A stretch of 64,000 nucleotides of DNA, from NCBI RefSeq assembly GCF_014054525.1, contig NZ_CP059564.1:72357-136356 (forward strand). Reading direction: 5' to 3'. This document shows positions 6,685 through 47,228 of the stretch, one piece after another. The notes under the pieces were generated by a model, which saw only the letters and a list, made by a program, of their open reading frames with translations, did no database searches and was not told where the DNA came from. Origin of the DNA: Alysiella filiformis (GTDB lineage Bacteria; Pseudomonadota; Gammaproteobacteria; Burkholderiales; Neisseriaceae). The position numbers and the translations under genes were made by a program. The number at the start of each line of letters is the position of its first letter. Position 1 is the first letter of the stretch.

Positions 6685-9177
6685 ATGGCAAAAACCACCC
6701 CCACAGCAGCAAAAAACCTGCTGACCACCTACGACTACATCAACCCCAAACCCGATGCCGAATTGGTACGCAAATCCATTGTTTACAAACTGATTTTCAT
6801 TTTGGGCATAGACCCCAAAGACGCGACACCAGCCGATTGGCTCAATGCCGCCATGTTCGCCGCGCGTGATTTGAGTACCGAAAACTTCCTCTCCACCCGA
6901 CAAATCCACGAAAAATTCAAAAAACGCACCGTGTATTATTTGTCTATGGAATTTTTGATGGGGCGCGCTTTTACCAACTCATTGATTAACCAAGACTTAT
7001 ATGGCGCATTTGAGCAAGCATTCAAAGAATTGGGCTTGAATTTAGCCGACATCAGCGAACAAGAAGCCGACCCCGCTTTGGGCAATGGCGGTTTGGGGCG
7101 TTTGGCAGCCTGTTTTTTGGATTCATTGGCAACTTTGCGCGTGCCTGCGGTGGGCTACGGCATTCGTTACCAATACGGCATGTTCAAACAAGAAATTGTG
7201 GACGGCAAACAAATTGAAAAACCCGATTTGTGGCTGGACAACGGCATGGCATGGCAGTTTGCGCGTCCTGCCAAGCGTTTCCCTGTGTCGTTTGGTGGCA
7301 CTTTGGACACTTCTCATTACCCACCGCGCTGGAAGCCTGCCGAGCAAATCAATGCGGTGGCTTACGATGAAATTGTGCCTGCGTTTGGTGGACAAATTGC
7401 CAATCCTTTGCGTTTGTGGACGGCACACACGGGCGATTTGTTCAATTTGGCGAGCTTTAACGAAGGCGATTATTTCTCGTCTATGGAAGCGCAAATGAAA
7501 AATGAAACCATCGCCAACGTGCTTTATCCGAATGATGCGACTGCGGTAGGGCGAGAATTGCGTTTAAAACAAGAATATTTCTTGGTTTCCGCATCGGTGC
7601 AGGACATCATTGCGCGACATTTGTGCCGCTACGACAGCATACACACCCTGCCCGAAGACGTGGCAATTCACCTTAACGACACCCACCCCGTGTTGGCGAT
7701 TCCCGAATTGATGCGGATTTTGATTGATGATTACTATCTGCCCTTTGACCAAGCGTGGGCGATGTGCCAAAAAATCTTCTCCTACACCAACCACACTTTA
7801 ATGAGCGAGGCTTTGGAAAAATGGTCGGTGGACATGATGGCGCAACTGTTGCCGCGTCATTTGGACATCATCTACAAAATCAATCATCATTTCATTGAAA
7901 ACGTGGTGCGTCCACAAGGCTACGATGACGATTTCATTCGCCGCGTTTCCATTATTGAAGAGGGCGAACAACGCCAAGTACGCATGGCTTGGCTGGCTGT
8001 GATTGCGTCTCACAAAGTCAATGGTGTGGCGAAAATCCATTCTGATTTAATGGTTTCGTCCTTGTTTGCGGATTTTGCGGCTTTGTTCCCCGAGCGTTTT
8101 ACCAATGTAACCAATGGTGTTACACCACGCCGTTGGATTGCGGTTGCCAATCCGAAATTGGCGCGTTTTTTGGACAAGCATTTGGGCGGTTCAGGCTGGC
8201 TGACCGATTTGAATCAGTTGAATCAATTAAACAAATTGGTGGACAACAAAGACATTCAAAACGAATTTGCCAATGTGAAACACGCTGCCAAAGTGCGTTT
8301 GGCGGAGTACATTCAGCGCGAAATGAACATCACGATTAACCCAAACGCTTTGTTTGACGTGCAAATTAAGCGCATTCATGCCTACAAACGCCAGTCTATG
8401 AATGTGTTGCACATTGTGCATCGCTACAACCAAATTTTGAATAACCCGAATGCCGATTGGCAGCCTCGTGTGTTCATTTTGGCGGGCAAGGCGGCATCGT
8501 CCTATAACGAAGCAAAACAAACCATTCGTTTAATCAATGACATTGCCTATTTCATCAACCACGATGAACGTGTGCGCGATTTGATTAAGGTGGTGTTTAT
8601 CCCCAATTACAGCGTGAGTTTGGCGGAATTGATTATTCCTGCGGCGGATTTGTCGGAACAAATTTCGCTGGCGGGCAAGGAAGCCTCTGGCACGAGCAAC
8701 ATGAAATTTGCGCTCAACGGGGCTTTAACCATTGGCACTTTGGACGGTGCAAACGTGGAAATTTTGCAACACGTTGGCGCGGAAAACATTTTCATTTTTG
8801 GCAACACGGTAGAGCAGGTGCAAACGCTGTATCGCAACGGTTACAATCCCTATGATTTTATTGACAATGACCCTGAATTGGCGCAAGTGGTCAATCAAAT
8901 CGCGCAAGGTGCGTTTTCGCCCGATGAGCCACATCGCTACCACAAATTGATGCACAATCGCGATGAATTTCAACGTTATGCGGATTTCCGCAGCTATGTG
9001 AACGCGCAGGCGCAAGTGGACAAATTGTATCGCCAGCCTGAAAAATGGTATCGTGCGGCATTGGTTAATATGGCGAATATGGGTTATTTCTCGTCCGACC
9101 GTTCTATTGAAGATTATTGCCGTGAGATTTGGCGCATTGAGCCTGTGTCGGAACAGGAATTGCCGCGTTTGGCTTAA
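6685..9177 (+). CDS. glgP: Glycogen/maltodextrin phosphorylase
   Basis: An 830-residue GT35 phosphorylase that releases glucose-1-phosphate from alpha-glucan ends, the degradative counterpart of GlgA. The pyridoxal-phosphate site [20 protein letters not shown] holds the Schiff-base Lys (about residue 677). [22 protein letters not shown] near residue 130 is the phosphorylase N-terminal core. Length matches E. coli GlgP (815) and MalP (797), and sequence alone does not settle glycogen versus maltodextrin preference; the glg context favours glycogen. Start ATG 6685 follows AGAGG. It is the last gene of the cluster and is followed by a 640-bp repeat-filled gap. Confidence 0.96.
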   Translation: [830 protein letters not shown]

Positions 9178-36972: not shown

Positions 36973-37014
36973 TAAAAAAACAGCCATTTTCAGGCTGCTT
37001 TTTTGAGTTTGGTG
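36973..37014. repeat. Island attachment repeat, distal copy
   Basis: 42 bp identical to 47106-47147: A7, the hairpin CAGCCATTTTCAGGCTG, T6, then GAGTTTGGTG. Beyond it ATAGCGGGACTT resembles the tRNA sequence ATAGCGAGACTT next to the other copy, but with CGG missing and further changes, so it looks like a displaced and decayed tRNA 3' end. Confidence 0.8.
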
Positions 37015-37082
37015 ATAGCGGGACTTATATTCAATGCTTAACTTATTGAATTTAAAAATCCCTAAAAATCCAATTTTACAAA

Positions 37083-37107
37083 ATACCGTAAAAAATACCG
37101 TAAATTT
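37083..37107. promoter_or_regulatory. Candidate integrase arm/excisionase sites, distal end
   Basis: Two direct copies of ATACCGTAAA at 37083-37092 and 37095-37104 (12-bp period), followed by TTT. The same 25-bp arrangement is repeated exactly at 46956-46980 near the other end of the island, which marks both as likely recombination-protein sites. Confidence 0.65.
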
Positions 37108-37120
37108 GTTGTCGTCATCT

Positions 37121-37489
37121 CTATTTCACGCCCAAAAGTTGAAACAAGCCACCTTTGCCTTTTGCTTGCCCATGCACATAATCAGCATAAATTTTCTTGG
37201 CTGTGATGTACAAGGTAACAGGCAAATCCTGCCCAATGGCTCTTTTTTGTTGCAAAATCGGTGTGATGATACCTGCAATGGAAATGACATCGCCTGTGTT
37301 TTGACGCATTAACTCGTCAATCACAAGTGGGTCAAAGGCAATCACATCGCCGTCCAATTCTTGCACATCAAGATTACTGTTACGATAAGCAAAAACCGTG
37401 ATTTTGGCAATCAAATATTGACTGCCCCTGTTGGTTCGCATGATTTTGGGGGCTAATACCAATCTACCGCTCACAATACCGTCAATCAT
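37121..37489 (-). CDS. OB-fold, SSB-like replication protein
   Basis: A 122-residue protein. IDGIVSGRLVLAPKIM, GSQYLIAKITVFAYR and GDVISIAGIITPILQQ follow the strand pattern of OB-fold single-strand DNA-binding proteins. A basic Gly/Lys C-terminus (GQAKGKGG) replaces the acidic SSB tail. ATG 37487-37489 is used; GTG 37495 is an alternative. It is the last gene of the replication group primase-helicase-SSB. Binding of single-stranded DNA during island replication is inference. Confidence 0.6.
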   Translation of the reverse strand: MIDGIVSGRLVLAPKIMRTNRGSQYLIAKITVFAYRNSNLDVQELDGDVIAFDPLVIDELMRQNTGDVISIAGIITPILQQKRAIGQDLPVTLYITAKKIYADYVHGQAKGKGGLFQLLGVK

Positions 37490-37524
37490 ATTCACTCACT
37501 TTCATTTTTTGGTTTGCTGGGTGT

Positions 37525-37772
37525 CATTCCCAAAATTCCCACCATTCCCACCATTCCCACGTTTTTTTGTGTGGCAGAGCTGAAAATTTCACAAAATGAC
37601 AAATTCAAAATTTTAACACATTGATTTTAAATTATTTTATAACATTTGCGAAAAAGTTTTTTCATATATATGCAAAAAGTACTGGGAATTGTGGGAATTG
37701 TGGGAATTAAATTTAAATTCAATAACTTAAAAATTTATTTACTGGGAATTTGCTGGGAATTGATTGGGAATT
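37525..37772. repeat. GGGAATT iteron cluster (distal end of the island)
   Basis: In the AT-rich gap 37496-37877, ATTCCC occurs four times at 9-bp spacing (37526-37558). GGGAATT then occurs three times at 9-bp spacing (from 37684, 37693, 37702) and three times at 11-bp spacing (from 37744, 37755, 37766). The same motif is arrayed near the integrase end (45415-45551). No gene is visible in the gap. I interpret it as an origin or regulatory site for a replication protein. Confidence 0.65.
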
Positions 37773-37877
37773 TATTTAAAAACAATATATTAGATAATAA
37801 ATTGAATAAATTCAATATTTTAAAATCAATGAAAACCGTGATAATTCGGCTCAATCATCACGGTTTCAGGCTGCATT

Positions 37878-39689
37878 TTATGCTTTTGGCTCAATTTCAG
37901 GTGGTTGAAAACCTTGTAAACAATACATTCGCGTATTTTCTGCCAAGTGCAATAAGCTACTCATTTCTTTTGTGATTTTCATCTTATTGCGCTGTGGGCT
38001 TTCCGACACCAGCCAGCCGCAATCACGCAACACCTTGCAAACAAATTTCACATCAAAACCTTTGCAAATTTCCTGCTCAAATACCGTGTCATTGATGTAA
38101 ATGCGCCCATTGCTTTTTAGGCGATAGCCAGCGTGGTTGCGCCCTGTGGCTGGCTCTACGGGATAACTGCCCCTGTCAATCAGGTAAAGCCGTTCGCCAT
38201 GCCCATGCTCTTGCATGAAGTGGATTGCGTTGCGTAGGATTTGGTTTTCTTCACGGTTGCCCTTGCCGTCTCGTGCATACCAATCCATGAAACAGGCGCG
38301 TATGCCAGCCATGCCAACACCTTTTTCAAAGCCTGTTACGCCCCATTCGCTTGCCAATTCCAACGCGGCTGCCACCAAAATAAAGCGTTTTGCCACGCGT
38401 TTAGGCTGGCTATCCATATTGGGCGGCAACATTGCGCCAAATTCCAAGCGAAGTTGGTTAATTCGGGCTAGGGTTTTTTCAGGCTGCTGGCGCATATTTT
38501 TCGTTAATTCAAGCAAATAGGCGCGAAATGCGCTGCCATAAATGCGTTTGGCACGGCTTTCCAAGTGCATTGCCAATTCAGCCGAATTGTCAAAATCATG
38601 CAGGGTATCAAACGAACCGAAACCCTTGCCCACATCGGCTGAAATCGCTGGCAATCGCACGGCTTGCCCTGCGTTCCATTCCAAACCGTCTTGTTTCAAG
38701 TAATGCTCTGCGTCATATTCGCCATTGGAAATGGCTAACACGCGCCATGTTTGCTGTACGCGGTTGCCGCCTTGTTTCGCGCCTTGCAATTTGGACACGC
38801 CGTTGAAAATGGAATAGGCTACGTCTTTAACCGTTTTTTGGTCTGCCTCGCCAATTTCATCAAGAAACACAATGCCGTCATTGTTGGCGGCTGCGTGGTT
38901 GTCAAAGCCCAAACTTGTGCCTTTCCATTGGACTTTTAAGCCTGTTGGCTCGCCCATCGCGGAAACCGCCACCATGCCAGCAATGCTTTTGCCGATTGAA
39001 CTGCTGCCAAAGAAATGAAAACCGCCACTCTCTTCACGCAATACGCCCAATAATGGCGCGGCAAACACCACGCCCAAAGCCAGCAGCAAACGCGAATTAC
39101 CACGCGCATACCGCGCAATCTCATTTTGCCAATCTTTCAGGCTGCCTGAAACGGTATAAGCGGCTTTACGGCTGTTGTCGCCTGTGTAGATAACCTTGCT
39201 TTCCGCGTGTCCGATGACTTCGCCATTTGGCAAAACGTAGGCGGTGCAGCTTTCATCACACCAGCCACCGCGTGATGTGATTTGCCATTCGGTACACTCC
39301 CCGTCCCATTGTACATAATCCCACAATTCGGCTTTGTAGCGGTCTTTAATGCAAATGCTTAAATTTTCACGCAAATAACTTAAACCGTCATTGCGCCCCA
39401 CCAAGCCCAATGGAAACGCTGCCACTTTTTTCACACCGCGCCCATTGCGTTGATATTCAATAATGCGGTATTCGCGCTCATCGCTCTGCCCACGCCCGAC
39501 AATGCGGAATGGGTCGGCAATGCGTACACGCGGTTTGGCAAATGTGATACCGTGTTTATCCACGCCCACGCCATGATAATACAAGCCTGTTGGCAAGCAT
39601 TCAAAATAGGGTTTCAAATCGCTGTGTTGTTCGTCATTGCCCATGTTTGCCAAGTCTGCCAATTCTTTGTTTTGATATTTGTTTTCCAT
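37878..39689 (-). CDS. DUF927-family helicase/ATPase
   Basis: A 603-residue protein. FHFFGSSSIGKSIAGMVAVS (about residues 226-245) is the Walker A region and GIVFLDEIGEAD (about 275) the Walker B, as in DUF927 proteins, which pair with primases in phages and islands. The N-terminal 200 residues form the usual DUF927 lead domain. The C-terminus GRIYINDTVFEQEICKGFD and the following winged-helix-like region may bind DNA. A DUS at 39136 is read in frame as SGSLK. AAGGATAAAATT precedes the ATG. The primase stop is 4 bp upstream, so the two are co-translated and likely act together, like the fused P4 alpha protein. Confidence 0.88.
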   Translation of the reverse strand: MENKYQNKELADLANMGNDEQHSDLKPYFECLPTGLYYHGVGVDKHGITFAKPRVRIADPFRIVGRGQSDEREYRIIEYQRNGRGVKKVAAFPLGLVGRNDGLSYLRENLSICIKDRYKAELWDYVQWDGECTEWQITSRGGWCDESCTAYVLPNGEVIGHAESKVIYTGDNSRKAAYTVSGSLKDWQNEIARYARGNSRLLLALGVVFAAPLLGVLREESGGFHFFGSSSIGKSIAGMVAVSAMGEPTGLKVQWKGTSLGFDNHAAANNDGIVFLDEIGEADQKTVKDVAYSIFNGVSKLQGAKQGGNRVQQTWRVLAISNGEYDAEHYLKQDGLEWNAGQAVRLPAISADVGKGFGSFDTLHDFDNSAELAMHLESRAKRIYGSAFRAYLLELTKNMRQQPEKTLARINQLRLEFGAMLPPNMDSQPKRVAKRFILVAAALELASEWGVTGFEKGVGMAGIRACFMDWYARDGKGNREENQILRNAIHFMQEHGHGERLYLIDRGSYPVEPATGRNHAGYRLKSNGRIYINDTVFEQEICKGFDVKFVCKVLRDCGWLVSESPQRNKMKITKEMSSLLHLAENTRMYCLQGFQPPEIEPKA

Positions 39690-39693
39690 AATT

Positions 39694-40767
39694 TTATCCT
39701 TGATTTTGGGTTTGTCGTGCCAGCAGGTCTAACACATCGTTGTCGTGTTCAGGCAGCCAAATGCGAATATTGCCTTTCAATGCGCTGTGGTAACGCCTTT
39801 GCAGCGTTTGGGCTGCCTGTAAACCTGTTTGGTTGTTGTCATTGTCTGCTACGATAATCAGGCGTTTAACCCATTCAGGCAGCCTGAAACCTGCTATGCG
39901 GTTTGCCGCGCCACACGCCCACACATTCAAGCCGTTTATGCTGTGTATGGCGATTGCGGTTTCAATGCCTTCACACACCACCAAAACGCCCTTTAATTCC
40001 TGTTCAGGCTGCCTGAAAAGGGGGATTGCCGCGCCCATTAACGCGCCTGAATACATAGAACGGTGCTTTTTCGCGTCCAAAGGCTGTTGCGTGGCAAAAT
40101 CGCGCAACTGAATTTTGCTTACAACACCTTGTTTTTTCATTAAATAGGTTAAATGTAAGCCCAATAATTCGCCATCATTCGCCCGAAACGCACCCACCAT
40201 TGCAGGAAAACGCCCCAAACATTTGCCATTGTGCCAATACGGTAAAGCCACATGAACACGCAAGGCTTTATGACAAATTGGCAAATTTTCAGGCTGTGGA
40301 ATGCCGCGCCCACGCAAATAATCCACAATCACATTGTGCGTTTGCCATGCTTTGCTGCTCGTCCAAATTTGCGTGAGTTTTTCGCGTTGCTGCTCGTCTT
40401 GTCGTGGCGCGTTTTGGGGCGTGGGGCGTTTTTCAGGCAGCCTGAATGCGTGGGCGTGGCGCGTACCACCCATGCCCAAACATTCCGCCACGCGCTTTAA
40501 GGCTTCGTTGAAATCGCAACCAAACACCAGCATAAGCAAATCAAAACCGCTACCGCCTTGTGGGGCGCATTGATTGCAAATCCACCAGCCACGCCCCCCA
40601 TTGTCGGTAAAGCGAAAACGGTCTTTCCCACCACAAGCAGGGCAAGGTTGATGTTTGTTTTTGTTTAATAAATTTTTAGGAATACCCAAAGCAGTTAAAA
40701 TTTCCACCCACCGCCCATTAGCAGCGTGTTTCACATCACTTAAAGTGAATTTGGGTTGATTCATCAT
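39694..40767 (-). CDS. P4-type primase: zinc ribbon plus Toprim
   Basis: A 357-residue protein. CPACGGKDRFRFTD and WWICNQCAPQGG (residues about 42-72) form the P4-type primase zinc ribbon. VVCEGIETAIAIHSINGLNVWACG and KRLIIVADNDNNQTG give the Toprim Glu and Asp-x-Asp. It would lay primers for island replication. It lies directly before the DUF927 helicase (4 bp). Three DUS copies lie inside the gene (39874, 40003, 40432) and are translated as FRLPE or FRQPE. AAGGAACC precedes the ATG. Confidence 0.9.
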   Translation of the reverse strand: MMNQPKFTLSDVKHAANGRWVEILTALGIPKNLLNKNKHQPCPACGGKDRFRFTDNGGRGWWICNQCAPQGGSGFDLLMLVFGCDFNEALKRVAECLGMGGTRHAHAFRLPEKRPTPQNAPRQDEQQREKLTQIWTSSKAWQTHNVIVDYLRGRGIPQPENLPICHKALRVHVALPYWHNGKCLGRFPAMVGAFRANDGELLGLHLTYLMKKQGVVSKIQLRDFATQQPLDAKKHRSMYSGALMGAAIPLFRQPEQELKGVLVVCEGIETAIAIHSINGLNVWACGAANRIAGFRLPEWVKRLIIVADNDNNQTGLQAAQTLQRRYHSALKGNIRIWLPEHDNDVLDLLARQTQNQG

Positions 40768-40778
40768 GTGTTGGTTCC

Positions 40779-41390
40779 TTATTTTTCGCGTTGCCGTTGG
40801 TCGTAGGCGCGTTTTCGTGCTGCACCGTCTGCGTGTTTGCGTGGTCTGCCACCCTTGCGTTTGGGTGCGCCAAGTAGCGGTATTTGCGGCATGGCACGGT
40901 GTGGATTGGGTGCGACTGGGCTAACATCAATCACATCATCGTCATCACGCCCCCAAAATGGCAAACGTTGGCGCGGTGGCGGTTCACGGCGTGGCTCGGT
41001 TACGACAATCACACGTTCACGTTGTGGTGGCTTGTGGTGCGTTTCAGGCTGCCTGAATGCTTGGCGTGGTTCGCGTTGTGGGATTTGGCGCGGTGGTGGC
41101 GTGGTGTAATTGTGTATGCGTAGCGGTGGTGTTTCACGCGGTGGCGCAACATAGCCCAAACGCCGATTGACTTGATAATCAATAAATTCTTGGTCGTGGC
41201 GGCAAACGGTTTCCAATAGGTATTGCATGGTGCGTTGTCGCCTTGTTTCGGAAAATGCCACATATTCGCGCAATTCTTCATTTTGTTTGGCAATGCCATA
41301 GTGTTTGACTGTAAGCGCAAAAGCTGCTGCCAATGATAAAGCTGCCAAAACAAAAAACAGCGTTACACCAATGATTTGTTCAAGGGTCAT
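40779..41390 (-). CDS. Membrane-anchored protein with basic AT-hook-like tail
   Basis: A 203-residue protein of unknown function. Residues 5-28 (IIGVTLFFVLAALSLAAAFAL) form one transmembrane helix. A coiled-coil region follows (KQNEELREYVAFSETRRQRTMQ), then a Pro/Arg-rich stretch with a DUS-encoded FRQPE. The C-terminus KRKGGRPRKHADGAARKRAY resembles a GRPRK AT-hook with a basic helix. It could tether island DNA to the membrane. It is the first gene of the replication operon (11 bp before the primase) and starts next to the iteron array. AAAGG precedes the ATG. Confidence 0.65.
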   Translation of the reverse strand: MTLEQIIGVTLFFVLAALSLAAAFALTVKHYGIAKQNEELREYVAFSETRRQRTMQYLLETVCRHDQEFIDYQVNRRLGYVAPPRETPPLRIHNYTTPPPRQIPQREPRQAFRQPETHHKPPQRERVIVVTEPRREPPPRQRLPFWGRDDDDVIDVSPVAPNPHRAMPQIPLLGAPKRKGGRPRKHADGAARKRAYDQRQREK

Positions 41391-41427
41391 GGGGTGTGCC
41401 TTTCTGCCCTACCCTGCTGCTGGTGTG

Positions 41428-41779
41428 GTAACGAAACTGGAAAAAGTGGGGTTTCGTTACTGCCCCAATGGGGTAGGGCGGTTTTTGGGGGTTTCGTTAC
41501 AAGGTTTCGTTACCTTTTGGGGTGGTTTCGTTACCTGTTTCGTTACATGGTGGGGCAGTTTCGTTACCATTTTTGGGGTTTCGTTACCGCCCTTTTGGGG
41601 GTTTCGTAACAAAATGGGCAGGTTTCGTTACCATTTTTGGGGTTTCGTTACCGCCCTTTTGGGGGTTTCGTAACAAAATGGGCAGGTTTCGTTACCATTT
41701 TTGGGGTTTCGTTACCGCCCTTTTTGGGGTTTCGTAACAAAATGGGCAGGTTTCGTTACCATTTTTGATGTTTCGTTAC
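41428..41779. repeat. Iteron array of GTTTCGTTAC, 17 copies (candidate replication origin)
   Basis: I count 13 exact copies of GTTTCGTTAC on the + strand (41451, 41491, 41504, 41525, 41537, 41558, 41578, 41622, 41642, 41686, 41706, 41750, 41770). There are three GTTTCGTAAC variants (41601, 41665, 41729) and one inverted copy (41428). From 41558 the spacing cycles 20, 23, 21 bp, so a 64-bp unit repeats just over three times. A spacing of about two helical turns puts the sites on one face of DNA, as in plasmid iterons. Frames through it (FRYHFWGFVT...) are translations of the repeat, not genes. It lies directly upstream of the replication operon. Confidence 0.85.
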
Positions 41780-41793
41780 CCTGCTGGTGGATT

Positions 41794-41985
41794 TCATTTG
41801 TATGATTTGCCCTGCTCTTGCGCCATTTGCGCTGTTAGGGCATGTTGCGTATCGCAAACAAACTGAAACACATCATCAAGGCTCAAAGTTTCATCGGCAT
41901 GGCACATCAAAACCACCACGCATTCCAGAGCGTCCACACCGCCTTGCAAATGGGCGATTGTGTGAGATAAATCGGGCTTATTCAT
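41794..41985 (-). CDS. Small island protein, 63 aa
   Basis: Not recognised. MNKPDLSHTIAHLQGGVDAL followed by DETLSLDDVFQFVCDTQHALTA (key part LDDVFQFV) is predicted helical throughout, with two or three short helices. AAAGGAT precedes the ATG at 41983-41985. It lies just after the iteron array, on the same strand as the other island genes. It may be a regulator or replication accessory, by position only. Confidence 0.55.
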   Translation of the reverse strand: MNKPDLSHTIAHLQGGVDALECVVVLMCHADETLSLDDVFQFVCDTQHALTAQMAQEQGKSYK

Positions 41986-42088
41986 TTTCAAAATCCTTTA
42001 AAATCAAAATATTGATTAAATGATATGGCTGTAAAAAGCCTGCCTTGCTGGTGTGGCAGCAAGGCGCGTTTAAAAATTCAAATGGGGT

Positions 42089-42478
42089 TTAGTATTGGGG
42101 GGATTGTGCAGGCAGAATAGGGGACGCATTCAGCGAAGTGCCAAGCTCCACCAAATAGGGCAGCAATTCGCCAACAACTGCGGCAAAATCAGCCAATAAT
42201 AACGGTGTGATGTATTCAGTCGCATTGCCATACTTGCCATTCGCAACAACAAAAGACAAGGCATTTAAAGTATCGCCCAAAGTAACGGCTGTGGTTTCAA
42301 TATACGAATGCAGCATTGAAATGCTTTCAGGGGGGACAGCAGAACAGCTTTGATTGGCAATCGCCAACAAATGCGCGTTTTTCAGCAAGCCAACCAAGCC
42401 TGTACTTGCGCTGGTGTCCAAAATGGCATTGATTTCGGTTTGATTGATGATGATTTTGTCAGATGATTGATTTTGCAT
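42089..42478 (-). CDS. Hypothetical island protein, 129 aa
   Basis: Not recognised. It is mostly helical, with hydrophobic stretches (GLVGLLKNAHLLAIANQ, LLADFAAVVGELLPYLVELG) that look like amphipathic packing helices rather than membrane spans. AAGGAATTG precedes the ATG at 42476-42478. It is followed 100 bp later by the 63-aa gene. Confidence 0.6.
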   Translation of the reverse strand: MQNQSSDKIIINQTEINAILDTSASTGLVGLLKNAHLLAIANQSCSAVPPESISMLHSYIETTAVTLGDTLNALSFVVANGKYGNATEYITPLLLADFAAVVGELLPYLVELGTSLNASPILPAQSPQY

Positions 42479-43083
42479 GATTGCAATTCCTTATGTTTTT
42501 AGAGAATTTAAGAAAGCCCAAATTGGGGGCGGTACTCTCTCTGGTCATAAGTAGTCCAGTCTGCGCCTTGCGGTTGGCAGATACCGCCATAAACTTTTTT
42601 GAAAGGGGCGCATGAAACGTGCAGATGTGTTTCAGGCTGCCTGAAAAAGAAATAGGCGATAAAAAACGGCTTTTCAACCCATGCCGTTTGGGTACTTATG
42701 ATTTTTGAGAGAACCAAAAATATAACTTCAATTCTCGTGGTGTTCAATGCTTGTTTTGTAGTTAAATCCTAAAATCATTGTTTTTCATGATGATTTTGTT
42801 TGGTGTATTGGTGCAATCGGGCGTTTTCAGGCAGCCTGAAATTGACAATTTCGCCACACACCGCCATAATCGCAAGCATGAGTACCGTTGAGTACCAAGG
42901 GCATTGTGTTTCGGCATAATGCCCTTTCACTTTTTCAGGCAGCCTGAACGGTGTTACCAAAAGCCTATAAAGCAGGCTTATTGGCGTTTTAAAAGGCTTT
43001 GTCCTGTTGGATAAACAAACACACCACCCAAACACCACAACGCAATTTGAGCGCGTTTTATCGCTGCCTGAATGCCTTTATCT
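42479..43083. other. Intergenic region of the island with three DUS copies
   Basis: About 600 bp without a gene I can support. DUS copies lie at 42631, 42826 and 42934. Short frames here (for example 42508-42747 and 42775-43038) start at TTG or lack a ribosome-binding site and read through DUS, giving FRQPE or FRLPE, so I leave them out. Confidence 0.6.
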
Positions 43084-43527
43084 TCACGACAACATCGGAT
43101 TGAGCTTTTTCGCCATACGATGATAGGGCGATTGCGGCTGATACGGCTGCCCCACGGGCATAATTTGCGTACGTTCAATGATTTTGCGCCATTGTTTCAA
43201 GCTCAATTCGCCTGTTTGCTGCGACACAATCACATCATGCAACTGGCAAAGGGTGGCGATTTGGTCTTGTTCACATTCGTTTTCACGCGGCAAGGGCATG
43301 AAAAACATCAAGGCATTGTATTTATGGGCTAATGCCACACAACGCATAAACAAGGCTTTTTCATATCCCACAACGGTTTTTTCAGGCAGGGTTTGGGCTA
43401 CGGCAACATCGCGCCAACTTTTGCCCTGCTTGGCAAAGCCACGCAATTCATCAGGCGTAAACATAGACATATACTGAATGCGCCCATCGCTGGTGTGTTT
43501 GTGATTACTGATTAAGAGCATATTCAT
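43084..43527 (-). CDS. Hypothetical island protein coupled to alpA
   Basis: A 147-residue soluble protein of unknown function. MFTPDELRGFAKQGKSWRDVAVAQ followed by EKTVVGYEKALFMRCVALAHKYN suggests a helical N-terminal region, possibly with a helix-turn-helix. The ATG at 43525-43527 follows the alpA stop by two bases, the stop itself lying inside a DUS-like sequence, so translation is probably coupled. An internal start at 43470 is possible. Confidence 0.6.
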   Translation of the reverse strand: MNMLLISNHKHTSDGRIQYMSMFTPDELRGFAKQGKSWRDVAVAQTLPEKTVVGYEKALFMRCVALAHKYNALMFFMPLPRENECEQDQIATLCQLHDVIVSQQTGELSLKQWRKIIERTQIMPVGQPYQPQSPYHRMAKKLNPMLS

Positions 43528-43529
43528 TT

Positions 43530-43769
43530 TCAGGCTGCCTTTCTTGTTTGGTGTTGTTGGTTGCGCTGCTCAATGCGTTTGAGCAGCCATTCGTTGATTT
43601 CGCTTTCTACCCAGCCGCTTGATTTAGCGGATAATTTAATCAATGTGGGGAATTCGGGGTCATACAAATGGCTTTTTGGGTTGGCTTTGGCATAAATGGC
43701 AGAACGGCTCAAAGCGGTCATGTGCATGACTTCGGGCAATTTCAAAATTCGGATTGTTTGAGTAGTCAT
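43530..43769 (-). CDS. alpA: AlpA-family transcriptional regulator
   Basis: A 79-residue protein. RILKLPEVMHMTALSRSAIYAKAN is the MerR-like helix-turn-helix of AlpA. FPTLIKLSAKSSGWVESEINEWL is the conserved second half (RW-x-E-x-E-x-x-x-WL pattern, with GWVESEINEWL). AlpA proteins activate excision and satellite genes in P4-like elements and Gram-negative phage-inducible islands. GGAG precedes the ATG. The stop codon is within a DUS core (last residues RKAA). Confidence 0.92.
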   Translation of the reverse strand: MTTQTIRILKLPEVMHMTALSRSAIYAKANPKSHLYDPEFPTLIKLSAKSSGWVESEINEWLLKRIEQRNQQHQTRKAA

Positions 43770-43879
43770 TAGTGGCTCTCCATGTGTTTACGATAGGCAA
43801 AATAATAGCCGTTATGCTTGTACAACATAACGGCATGGGTGGCTCATAAGGCTTTACGGGCAGCCTGTAAAGGTGGTTT

Positions 43880-44836
43880 TTAAGATGGAATGCGTTTCAG
43901 CCATCGGCGAACTGCGTCATGGCTTAATACTTTATCTTTTTCACTCATTTTTACATCTTTCTTAATTAAATCATCAATGTATTCATCATAATGGGCTTGC
44001 ACAATGGCAATGAATTTGGCTTGTGCGCCGTATTCTTGCGATTGCAAACGCGCTGCCCATATTTGAAATAATTCCTGAAACTTACCCAATCTAAACTTTT
44101 CTTTCACATTGTTTTGCAACTGTTTTTCTCTGCCTTTGCTGCCATTTTCACGCGCCAATTCCCGAATGGACTTCTCAACTGGCTGTACTGCGGTTGGTGT
44201 TTTAGACTTATTGGATTGATTCTTATTGTATTTTTTAATAAATTTTTGCAAAATTACCATGATTTCATCAAACGGCATATCGCCAAATAATGCCCGAACA
44301 GCCATGATTTGATTGCCAATTTCATAATTTTGCTTTGCCATTTGTATGTGTTCACGCATTCTTGCAACATTTTCTGCAAGACGTCTTTCTTCAAGCTCTC
44401 TCTTTACGTCATCTAACCGTTTTTGGGCTTCTTCTGCTGATAGTGTTGTCATTTCTTGCAATGTATGCGCTGGCTTACCTATTCTTGCCATCTCTTGCAA
44501 TGTATGCGCTGGCTTACCTATTCTTGCCATCTCTTGCAATGTATGCGCTGGCTTACTTATTCTTGTCATCTCATCACGCATAGCAGAAAACAAGTCTTGT
44601 TCAATTCTTTGCCAGCCATTCGGTGCTGCTTTTGCTGCGTTCAATGCTGCCAATTCTGTACCACTAAAAGCAGAAAACCAGCCACCCATTCTTTTCTCTG
44701 TATCGTTTATTTCCTGCTTTATGATTTCGCGTTTTTGGGCATTATATTCACGCGCGACAGCCAACATTTCGGCTGATAAAAGATTGCGCTTTTTGAGACG
44801 ATTTTCTTCAAGGCTTTCTTTTAATTCAGGTTTCAT
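43880..44836 (-). CDS. Island protein with 13-residue tandem repeats
   Basis: A 318-residue, highly charged, mostly helical protein of unknown function. MKPELKESLEENRLKKRNLL begins a coiled-coil region. Residues about 90-128 contain three copies of [AT]RI[GS]KPAHTLQEM in perfect 13-residue register. A Lys/Asn-rich middle (KKYNKNQSNKSKTPT) precedes a C-terminal helical part ending AVRRWLKRIPS. AGGAACAAC precedes the ATG at 44834-44836; a longer frame to 44887 is unsupported. It lies between int and alpA, a cargo position in satellites, so it may be an accessory or anti-phage factor, by position only. Confidence 0.65.
   Translation of the reverse strand: MKPELKESLEENRLKKRNLLSAEMLAVAREYNAQKREIIKQEINDTEKRMGGWFSAFSGTELAALNAAKAAPNGWQRIEQDLFSAMRDEMTRISKPAHTLQEMARIGKPAHTLQEMARIGKPAHTLQEMTTLSAEEAQKRLDDVKRELEERRLAENVARMREHIQMAKQNYEIGNQIMAVRALFGDMPFDEIMVILQKFIKKYNKNQSNKSKTPTAVQPVEKSIRELARENGSKGREKQLQNNVKEKFRLGKFQELFQIWAARLQSQEYGAQAKFIAIVQAHYDEYIDDLIKKDVKMSEKDKVLSHDAVRRWLKRIPS
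44450..44566 (-). repeat. 39-bp tandem repeat, three units, within coding sequence
   Basis: Units at 44450-44488, 44489-44527 and 44528-44566 are nearly identical (each contains TTGCAATGTATGCGCTGGCT). The length is a multiple of three, so changes in copy number keep the frame. Confidence 0.9.
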
Positions 44837-45228
44837 GTGTGTTGTTCCTATCCCTAAAAATCCAACGCATTCTAACATCGTCCACACACATCAACAATCA
44901 TGTTTTTAAAAAGATTTTTGTTTCATTTGCCACATAGCAAGCAGGGAATGGGGCAAGCTCTGTGTCCTGCCTTTCAGGCTGCCTGAACCCCCCACATGCC
45001 ACGCAATAAAATTGCTCAAAATCCCATGTTTTTCAAAATGTTAAATTAAAATATCGCCACGCTGCCTAAATGCGCCAATCCACGTTAAAACCACACACAC
45101 CACCGCTCACACTTCAAAAAAAACCTTTATAAAACAAAGTTTAATGTATTTAATCATATATCAAATCATTGATTTTTAACAATTCCCTTTAACTTTAACA
45201 CGTTTACAGGGGATTTTTTTCTGTGAAT

Positions 45229-45281
45229 GGGGGTACTGGCGGTGTCCATATCCCATAGCCTGTGGACTTTTGAATACCCCC
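45229..45281 (-). ncRNA. Candidate structured regulatory RNA (C4/CI-like)
   Basis: An outer stem GGGGGTA (45229-45235) / TACCCCC (45275-45281) encloses an inner stem GTCCA (45244-45248) / TGGAC (45263-45267). This nested two-stem plan and the position in the control region resemble the C4/CI antisense RNAs of phages P1 and P4. The strand is uncertain; I give the minus strand because the regulated operon lies there. A GTCCACA segment of the minus-strand RNA could pair with TGTGGAC about 40 nt before the 318-aa gene. Confidence 0.4.
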
Positions 45282-45414
45282 TACACCCCAAAATGATAGG
45301 GCTGGCAGCAGTCAGGAAGGAAGTAATGGCACGCCCACACTTCACACAAAAAGGGGTTTGAATGCCCCGTATGGTTGAAAGGCTGGAAAGTACCTAACAC
45401 ATTGATTTAAAAAT

Positions 45415-45551
45415 AATTCCCACCAATTCCCACCAATTCCCAGTAATTCCCACTCAATTCCCAGTAAATTCCCACAACAAAAAATCATGATTATGATATT
45501 TAAATATTTGATTTAAATAAATATTTAATATATTTTGTTAATTCAATTCCC
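45415..45551. repeat. GGGAATT iteron cluster (integrase end of the island)
   Basis: AATTCCC starts at 45415, 45425, 45435, 45445, 45456 and 45467, i.e. 10-11 bp apart, one helical turn, with a seventh at 45545. The same motif is clustered at 37525-37772, about 7.7 kb away at the other end of the island. Confidence 0.7.
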
Positions 45552-45663
45552 ACTACTTTACCTAAAAGGGTTCGCGTAGGGGGCTTTGCTTTCCATATTC
45601 TGCCTGCTCACACCCTATGGGCTTACCCAAATTGCCAACGCGTTCACACCGCGCCACACCAGC

Positions 45664-45693
45664 AAAAACCCCTTACGAAACAATCGTAAGGGG
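45664..45693 (-). terminator. Rho-independent terminator of the integrase gene
   Basis: CCCCTTACGA pairs with TCGTAAGGGG around a 5-nt loop. On the minus strand it is followed by T5. It lies 14 bp past the integrase stop. Confidence 0.88.
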
Positions 45694-45706
45694 CTTGTAT
45701 GCTCTT

Positions 45707-46924
45707 TCAGGCAGCCTGAATGTGTTGCATGGCTTGGGTGTAATGCTGTTTCAAATAATCCGAATACCATTGCATAAATTCGGTACGCTCCGCCATGTAT
45801 TCTGCCCTATTGTAGGCAGCGCGGATTTTGTCATGGGGAATATGGGCAAGTTGCCGCTCTATCGCGTCAGGGTTGAAACCTTGTTCATTCAACACACTGC
45901 TTGCCAAGCTCCTAAATCCATGTGGCGTAGCAATACCGTTGTAACCCAATTTCTTGATAATATTGTTCAACGTGGTTTCACTCATCACACCATTTTGCGC
46001 GGTACGGCTGGGAAACAGATAGGGTGTATTACCCGTCAGCTCACGCAATTCATGTAGCAGCTCAATCGCCCATGTGGAAAGCGGTATCACAAGGGGCGGT
46101 TTGGGCTTGTTCTTTTCGTGTTTCATGCGTTCGGCTGGTATTGTCCAAATGGCTGCCTGAAAATCAATCTCACACCATTTGCCACCACGAAACTCCGTAC
46201 TTCGCGGAAACAACAACATCAGCAGCAATATCGCCAATCTGCTTTTTGGGTCAATGTGGGCAGTCATCAAACCCTTATAGAAGTTCACAAGCTCATCTTG
46301 CGGTAGGGCTGGCAAGTGTTGTGTGCTTGGTTTTTCAAATGTGCCATGTAATACCCGTGCTGGGTTGCGGTCGGTCAATTCCAAAATGGCAGCATAAGCG
46401 TAAACGGCAGCTATCCATTGGCGGATTTTTTCAGCCGTTGCAGCAGCATTGCGCCCAATCACGCGCAACATCACATCTTTCACATCTGCCACGCGTACAT
46501 CAGCAAGCTGTTTATCGCCAATATGGGGGAAAACATCTTTTTCCAAATAGCCCATAATTCGGGCAGCATTATCCGTTTTCCAACGGTGCAAATTGGCAGC
46601 GTGCCATTGTCTTGCCAAATGCTCAAAAGTATTGAGTAAACGTGCTTTCTGCTCTTGTTTGGCTTGCTTTTTGACTTCTGCTGGATTGATACCATTGGCG
46701 ATTTGGGTTCGTGCGCGTTCGGCTGCTGCTCGTGCTTCGCTCAATGAAACGGCTGGATATTTGCCAATCGTTAAAGTGGCACGTTTGCCATTCATGGCGT
46801 AATCAAAACGGAAAGATTTTCCGCCTGCTGGTGTGATGTAGAGATACAAGCCGTTTTCATCATTCAGCTTATAGGCTTTGGCGGCTGGCTTGCAACGCTT
46901 TATTTGTAAGTCATTCAGGGGCAT
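45707..46924 (-). CDS. int: P4-type tyrosine integrase
   Basis: A 405-residue site-specific recombinase. The N-terminal arm-binding DUF4102 domain (MPLNDLQIKRCKPAAKAYKL, then GLYLYITPAGGKSFRFDY and TIGKYPAVSLSEAR) is typical of P4-like integrases that use tRNA genes. In the catalytic domain an Arg lies in FPRSTEFRGGKW, HGFR is the His-x-x-Arg motif, and the Tyr nucleophile is probably in IRAAYNRAEYM. The first Arg region reads PRSTEFRG instead of the usual R-x-x-E-L, so the Arg follows the Ser/Thr in a slightly unusual form (R-S-T-E-F). The stop codon lies inside a DUS (last residues IQAA). The gene sits beside tRNA-Leu. Confidence 0.95.
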   Translation of the reverse strand: MPLNDLQIKRCKPAAKAYKLNDENGLYLYITPAGGKSFRFDYAMNGKRATLTIGKYPAVSLSEARAAAERARTQIANGINPAEVKKQAKQEQKARLLNTFEHLARQWHAANLHRWKTDNAARIMGYLEKDVFPHIGDKQLADVRVADVKDVMLRVIGRNAAATAEKIRQWIAAVYAYAAILELTDRNPARVLHGTFEKPSTQHLPALPQDELVNFYKGLMTAHIDPKSRLAILLLMLLFPRSTEFRGGKWCEIDFQAAIWTIPAERMKHEKNKPKPPLVIPLSTWAIELLHELRELTGNTPYLFPSRTAQNGVMSETTLNNIIKKLGYNGIATPHGFRSLASSVLNEQGFNPDAIERQLAHIPHDKIRAAYNRAEYMAERTEFMQWYSDYLKQHYTQAMQHIQAA

Positions 46925-46925
46925 T

Positions 46926-46980
46926 TTTACGGTATTTTTTCAGGCTGTTTTTCAGATACCGTAAAAAATACCGTAAATTT
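46926..46980. promoter_or_regulatory. Candidate integrase arm/excisionase sites and int operator, proximal end
   Basis: Direct copies of ATACCGTAAA at 46956-46965 and 46968-46977 repeat the distal pair at 37083-37104 exactly. An inverted copy (TTTACGGTAT) at 46926-46935 lies 2 bp from the int start codon, so binding there would also control int. Confidence 0.65.
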
Positions 46981-47105
46981 CATGTTGATTCAATAGGACG
47001 AAAATAGACGAATGTAGCCACATTTTCCATTGTGCATGATACCACTCAATAAAAATACCATTTATAAACAAATATTTGATAGACGTAGATAGACAAAAAT
47101 AGCCG

Positions 47106-47147
47106 TAAAAAAACAGCCATTTTCAGGCTGCTTTTTTGAGTTTGGTG
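47106..47147. repeat. Island attachment repeat, tRNA-proximal copy
   Basis: Identical to 36973-37014. It includes the tRNA-Leu terminator hairpin and the final ACCA plus one base of the tRNA gene, so integration would leave the tRNA intact. Confidence 0.8.
47107..47137 (-). terminator. tRNA-Leu terminator
   Basis: CAGCC / GGCTG stem with loop ATTTTCA flanked by A7 and T6, so it can work in both directions. It contains a truncated DUS. Confidence 0.75.
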
Positions 47148-47228
47148 CGGATAGCGAGACTTGAACTCGCACGAGCTGCGCTCACCACCCCCTCAAGATG
47201 GCGTGTCTACCAATTTCACCATATCCGC
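47143..47228 (-). tRNA. tRNA-Leu (GAG anticodon)
   Basis: An 86-nt class II tRNA with encoded CCA. Acceptor GCGGATA pairs with TATCCGC. The D loop contains AAATTGGTAGACAC. The anticodon stem CCATC/GGTGG holds loop TTGAGGG, anticodon GAG, reading CUU and CUC. The long variable arm (GAGCGCAGCTC) and the T arm GCGAG/CTCGC with TTCAAGT are intact. Its 3' end is the island attachment site. Confidence 0.95.

Follow-up and report, generated by a model that had tools for sequence, protein, structure and literature searches.

phiAH14b of Pseudomonas sp. ANT_H14 (KU708005) is a satellite of phiAH14a; its genome, which lacks a terminase gene, is packaged at about trimer length in the capsids of the helper (PMC4936722). 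PICMI of the Vibrionaceae, which carry an integrase, AlpA and a primase without capsid-remodeling genes, are packaged as concatemers (PMC10803314). SaPIbov1 Rep and SCC Cch are DUF927-type helicases, and the SaPI iteron origin lies directly downstream of rep (PMC7581432). Two further points of comparison come from sequence records: P4, and a Klebsiella circle (NZ_CP069874) that is a capsid-carrying PICI-like element, a class assigned from its gene content. The Klebsiella circle encodes capsid, protease, portal and both terminase subunits and has no annotated tail genes.

The stretch of Alysiella chromosome analyzed here (64 kb, hereafter ‘the window’), from an oral member of the Neisseriaceae, contains an island of ~10.2 kb that looks like a complete mobile element between att repeats, with all called genes on the minus strand (Table 1). 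The genes of phiAH14b are arranged as in the island, from int through a ~320-aa gene, AlpA and small genes to the Toprim primase, DUF927 and iterons; its integrase is 40% and its DUF927 protein 29% identical to those of the island, and it likewise lacks terminase and capsid genes. It differs in its size (16.8 kb) and in extra cargo after the helicase, and at the position tested nothing homologous to the SSB-like protein was detected. Moreover, packaging of phiAH14b is experimental, whereas that of the window element is a prediction. Because phiAH14b is packaged despite the same lack, the missing packaging genes of the window copy argue neither against a satellite nor prove one. In the Klebsiella circle, int, a ~313-aa gene, AlpA and DUF927 are followed immediately by iterons, but the window element has none of its head and terminase genes.

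The other systems share fewer features. P4 has a P4-type integrase, an AlpA-type regulator, a primase/helicase and type-1 iterons at ori and crr, as the window element has in kind. However, P4 fuses its primase to a different helicase in alpha and carries sid, delta, psu and epsilon, none of which were found in the window; with its separate primase and DUF927 genes, the island falls outside the P4 family sensu stricto. SaPIbov1 and SCC resemble the island in the DUF927 helicase, to which the window protein adds a weak NCBIfam match to SCC Cch, and in iterons right downstream, but they are Gram-positive systems with different recombinases, an AEP-type primase (SaPIbov1) and divergent Stl control. 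PICMI are minimal satellites with integrase, AlpA and primase, like the island, but are about 6 kb long, adjoin fis, use a different primase and depend on virulent helpers.

In our view, the 10-kb island is likely to be an integrative satellite of the Gram-negative PICI/P4-like/phiAH14b kind, from a lineage that is common in Neisseriaceae. In the mechanism that we propose, the integrase would recombine the tRNA-Leu(GAG) att sites via arm sites at both ends, and AlpA would serve as activator or excisionase. The excised circle would then be copied by the element's own kit of DUF927 initiator, primase and SSB-like protein, with DUF927 acting on GTGGGAAT iterons that precede the alpA operon and follow the helicase gene. 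Finally, a helper phage would package the element DNA, probably as concatemers because the element has neither a capsid nor a terminase gene. As far as the open-licence literature shows, this is a known kind of element that is new for Neisseriaceae: a search of open-licence papers yielded no published Neisseriaceae satellite, which is not proof of absence. The initial annotation likewise named no satellite described in the group.

Genes, ends and iteron arrays of the island

Table 1 Features of the Alysiella island and its integration site (window positions)
Feature	Position	Strand	Basis
Distal attachment repeat: exact 42 bp plus decayed tRNA-Leu 3′ remnant	36973..37026		Repeat search, 93% remnant match
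Two arm-type sites TTTACGGTAT, distal side	37083..37104		5 copies in window, ends only
SSB-like OB-fold protein, start set at conserved MIDG	37121..37489	-	8 homologues, AF2 pLDDT 78, Foldseek to SSBs
Iteron array 2 (ATTCCCA / TGGGAAT, 10 copies), right after helicase gene	37526..37771		Site of P4 crr and SaPI/GN-PICI origins
DUF927 AAA+ helicase, probable replication initiator	37878..39689	-	PF06048 4.7e-51; weak SCC Cch match
Zn-ribbon/Toprim primase	39694..40767	-	PF08273, PF13362; phrog_510 2.8e-80
orf203, membrane-segment-like N-terminal stretch, basic GRPRK C-terminus	40779..41390	-	Cassette common to second element of same genome
Second repeat array, TTTCGTTAC x14 (x17 allowing one variant position), upstream of orf203	41428..41779		Repeat search
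Small ORF, may not be a gene, no convincing family match	41794..41991	-	ORF call
orf129, homologues in two other elements	42089..42478	-	Locus comparison
orf147, homologue in element of genome G002 (another genus)	43084..43527	-	Locus comparison
AlpA-type regulator/excisionase	43530..43769	-	PF05930 1.2e-17
335-aa protein with 13-residue repeats, highly variable int-alpA slot	43880..44887	-	ORF call, repeats, locus comparison
Iteron array 1 (ATTCCCA motif, 7 copies), upstream of alpA operon	45416..45552		Site of P4 ori
P4-type tyrosine integrase	45707..46924	-	PF13356, PF22022, PF00589
Three arm-type sites TTTACGGTAT, integrase side	46926..46977		Motif search
Proximal attachment repeat, overlaps tRNA 3′ end, includes likely terminator	47106..47147		Repeat and hairpin
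tRNA-Leu(GAG), integration target	47143..47228	-	tRNA call

Pfam matches above curated cut-offs identify the integrase (three domains), AlpA, the primase (Zn_Ribbon_Prim, DUF7146 and Toprim_3) and DUF927, and we read the integrase R/K/H-R/H/Y, Toprim E/DxD and DUF927 Walker motifs as intact; the primase also has a weak, sub-cut-off match to TraI. The AlpA-type regulator is a feature by which Gram-negative PICI and P4-like satellites are recognized. The OB protein has no Pfam match, and a sequence profile of it returned nothing from the PDB, but its AlphaFold2 model (pLDDT 78) has bacterial SSBs as its nearest solved folds (Foldseek best E 9.3e-6), so that the fold, as modeled, is SSB-like. A comparison with the 111-aa genes that follow DUF927 in phiAH14b and the Klebsiella circle gave no support for homology to the window protein.

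Family searches between the att sites matched no capsid, portal, tail, terminase or lysis genes. The island combines the absence of structural and lysis genes with a size typical of satellites (about 10–15 kb), and it contains none of the terminase, portal, capsid and tail genes that would mark a complete or defective prophage. Nor do the family matches include a relaxase or conjugation gene, as would be expected of an integrative mobilizable or conjugative element. In the window copy, the same searches found no terS and, among the families that they cover, no redirecting (rpp-like) protein. The five genes named in the initial annotation, for a P4-type integrase, AlpA, primase, DUF927 helicase and OB-fold protein, are all confirmed, as are their common strand and the absence of structural, packaging and lysis genes among the families searched. 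The annotation did not mention the arm sites, the three repeat arrays, orf203 or the 335-aa gene. The last of these occupies an int-alpA slot that holds a 230–380-aa gene in most elements, as well as in phiAH14b and the Klebsiella circle, with almost no recognizable similarity between elements. A candidate C-terminal motif common to these genes was rejected: leave-one-out profiles convinced only in the case of close pairs and a single other protein, and the window protein, first of 228, scored an E of only 0.47.

A perfect 42-bp direct repeat (36973–37014 and 47106–47147, 100%) contains a terminator-like hairpin, and its proximal copy shares the last five bases of tRNA-Leu(GAG), so that the repeats previously noted beside this tRNA prove exact and overlap its 3′ end. 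The distal copy runs on into a decayed tRNA-Leu 3′ remnant (57 query bases, 93%). A mutated tRNA 3′ remnant at the distal end is the expected product of site duplication by a tRNA-targeting integrase. A tyrosine integrase with a specific att site is also characteristic of Gram-negative PICI and P4-like satellites in the broad sense. The arm motif TTTACGGTAT starts at 37083 and 37095 on the distal side and at 46926, 46956 and 46968 on the integrase side; because these five copies are the only ones in 64 kb and all lie at the two ends, their placement exceeds chance. The P4 record places integrase arm sites around attP in the same layout. Motifs at both ends also occur in the sibling elements examined, most strongly in L037, L038 and L041 and weakly in several others. 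The AATTCCCA arrays were considered as integrase arm sites but are ruled out by position, whereas TTTACGGTAT fits. Rfam identified only the tRNA, with one weak microRNA match far under cut-off that we take as chance arising from the repeats.

The iteron arrays of the window element occupy the positions at which P4 carries its type-1 iterons (TGTTCACC), namely before the alpA operon (ori) and behind alpha (crr). Counted as an 8-mer, the window iteron GTGGGAATT occurs seven times after DUF927 and seven times after int, against no more than two in shuffled sequences; 7-mer counts are ten and seven, respectively. An array directly after DUF927 is found in most Neisseriaceae elements, with a motif that varies by element around G[CT]GG[GT][AT]A, as well as in phiAH14b (GGGGAACAG) and the Klebsiella circle (TGTTGGTTCA). 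Twin arrays recur in L032, L033, L034 and L049, with L032 closest to its shuffle maximum (4 versus 3). The island thus has its own primase and putative initiator with an iteron array directly downstream, as expected of a satellite, and this array may act as an origin. Across 21 elements, iteron similarity tracks the C-terminal fifth of DUF927 (r 0.50, with consensus sequences oriented by hand and element pairs non-independent). Given the N-terminal half, the partial correlation of the C-terminus with the iterons is 0.23 (p 0.007); the reverse is 0.06 and not significant. This covariation agrees with the behavior of SaPI Rep, which reads its origin via its C-terminus (PMC7581432).

Relatives across Neisseriaceae

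The element is a common one: among 71 good Neisseriaceae genomes, 34, from 6 of 12 genera, have a DUF927 homologue. Relatives are present in about half of the genomes searched, including many in the genus Neisseria. Three homologues lie in the Alysiella genome itself, where two further family elements (L031 and L032), one of them at tRNA-Leu(TAG), each have their own repeat motif. A search of relatives for the int-alpA-primase-DUF927 order, as the initial annotation had proposed, finds it recurring in about 20 Neisseriaceae loci, most of which read int, large variable gene, alpA, small genes, primase and DUF927. Sibling elements are 8–12 kb throughout with key genes mostly intact, and they usually lie beside tRNA-Leu, -Met, -Thr, -Arg or -Phe; at one tRNA-Phe (L041), two elements stand in tandem. 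Cargo matches in siblings include an antirepressor, toxin-antitoxin, Fic and PD-Lambda-2.

Two siblings (L043 and L049) carry terS genes of two types, phrog_606 (3.8e-12) and phrog_51 (3.6e-21). The sibling with the phrog_606 type occupies the same tRNA-Leu(GAG) site and has terS between the helicase and the distal tRNA remnant. The phrog_51 type lies between alpA and primase, and a third element encodes a further member of its cluster. A ‘head maturation protease’ in three siblings was discounted as evidence of capsid genes, given partial profile coverage.

Of 30 tRNA-Leu(GAG) loci retrieved, nine adjoin a window-type integrase (two of them partial in the available stretch) and the rest do not. 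In the one congener examined for an empty site, a different integrase (63%) already sits at tRNA-Leu(GAG), and the contig that bears the opposite flank stops 228 bp past uvrD. Element proteins are 64% identical within the genus and 66% between genera, whereas host UvrD is 87% identical within the genus, so the elements are not simply inherited. In L086 of genome G049, compared with L042 of genome G014, all that an internal deletion has left of the element is an eroded integrase stub, with the distal flank after it.

Among 80 IMG/VR loci, none has the direct terminal repeats of a circular virome contig. Tail genes lie near the DUF927 module in L098 and after a broken second integrase in L099; these could be either captured late genes or parts of a neighboring prophage. 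At positions 1–1237 of BK070131.1 (L265), the edge of a 40-kb prophage record labeled Helicobacter pametensis, there is a broken integrase 61% identical to that of the window.

Transfer routes and competing explanations

The island has 21 matches to the host's uptake-sequence dialect in 10.2 kb, or 2.06/kb compared with 1.67/kb genome-wide. A density on par with the host suggests long residence, and natural transformation is a possible second transfer route. The paired dialect found in the island is reportedly prevalent in Alysiella crassa and Simonsiella, and genomic islands of pathogenic Neisseria are often drastically reduced in uptake-sequence density (PMC7371117). In most siblings the dialect is also that of the host, and flanks with few or no sites go with elements that have few or none. 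In genome G014, however, the genome dialect GCCTGTCTGAA (2,349 sites) is absent from the commonest sites of its element L042, which carries GGCCGTCTGAA, and a cluster of the same foreign dialect (AG-DUS) marks the element of genome G034 (contig C1, about 146.8–151.6 kb). Both elements probably arrived recently, across dialects, by a dialect-blind route. Wrong dialects in siblings of two hosts imply that the lineage does not move by transformation alone, and phage transfer would fit such arrivals.

Four informative marker families reveal no tailed prophage in the Alysiella genome; PF05876, PF04860 and PF03354 have no match there, a phrog_2 match falls in a RecD-like helicase and is taken as false, and in the search with PF06074 (Mu portal) no control gave a match. 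This leaves other phage families and external phages as possible helpers. Of the initial proposal of a satellite that replicates and is mobilized by a helper phage, the satellite kinship is well supported by the phiAH14b and Klebsiella gene order, sibling terS genes and P4-like iterons; replication and mobilization by a helper are its predicted part, and the families tested show neither a packaging gene in this copy nor a resident helper in the genome.

These observations also bear on what else the island might be. It could be a former satellite that has lost packaging and now persists as a resident island, spreading vertically and by uptake-sequence-mediated transformation with homologous recombination, and terS genes present in siblings but absent here, the lack of a resident tailed prophage in the families tested, an uptake-sequence density that is not depleted as in islands of pathogenic Neisseria, and an 809-bp cassette (95.3%) recombined between two elements of the genome would all be explained. 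Three related elements in one genome could likewise reflect immobile accumulation. We nevertheless regard this history as unlikely, as the integrase appears intact, as do the att repeats and arm sites, phiAH14b is packaged likewise without packaging genes, and the foreign AG-DUS of the G014 and G034 siblings show that the dialect barrier has been crossed within the lineage.

We think it distinctly improbable that the island is an autonomous plasmid-like integrative element, able to replicate and excise with no phage, similar to SCC with its Cch helicase. SCC Cch and SaPIbov1 Rep are indeed helicases of the DUF927 type (PMC7581432), and relatives have been deposited as 10–16 kb circular plasmids. 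However, two of three such circles, with genes for AlpA, an antirepressor or capsid/terminase, could be satellites in their excised form, the island has no partition, relaxase or conjugation gene, and siblings carry terS. Least credible, and in our judgment very hard to sustain, is a decayed prophage cut down to its integration and replication genes: the primase and integrase do belong to phage families, but the same compact order recurs with mostly intact key genes in about 20 loci, size stays at 8–12 kb throughout, and the order is common to packaged or capsid-carrying satellites. The initial annotation had named the same genes within a complete prophage as an observation that would count against a satellite; no close relative shows this, and a single metagenome contig, 38% identical, has a DUF927 helicase followed by tail genes.

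Beyond the preferred reading of the island as a satellite, a broader picture can be offered tentatively, although we think it less likely than not to hold. The Neisseriaceae elements may form an undescribed lineage of DUF927-replicon satellites that cross dialects by helper-phage transfer and also spread by transformation, accruing the host's uptake dialect, and whose P4-like iterons, twin in some elements, diversify with the DUF927 C-terminus to yield private replication specificity. If the satellite reading is right, a genus-rich, naturally transformable family would harbor a common and, as far as the literature search shows, undescribed phage-satellite lineage, uptake-sequence dialects would provide a natural marker separating phage-mediated jumps from transformation, and iteron/initiator pairs would make DUF927 origin specificity directly testable.

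The orf203 cassette

An 809-bp block that contains orf203 and part of the TTTCGTTAC array (window 40779–41779) matches L032, the second element of this genome, at 95.3% identity (8150–8980), whereas the other genes common to the two elements have only 34–49% protein identity, which indicates recombination between two elements of this genome. Proteins related to orf203 were found by profile search in 3 of 83 genomes, from two genera. As a guess only, orf203 might be membrane-tethered or partition-like, possibly binding DNA beside its own repeats.
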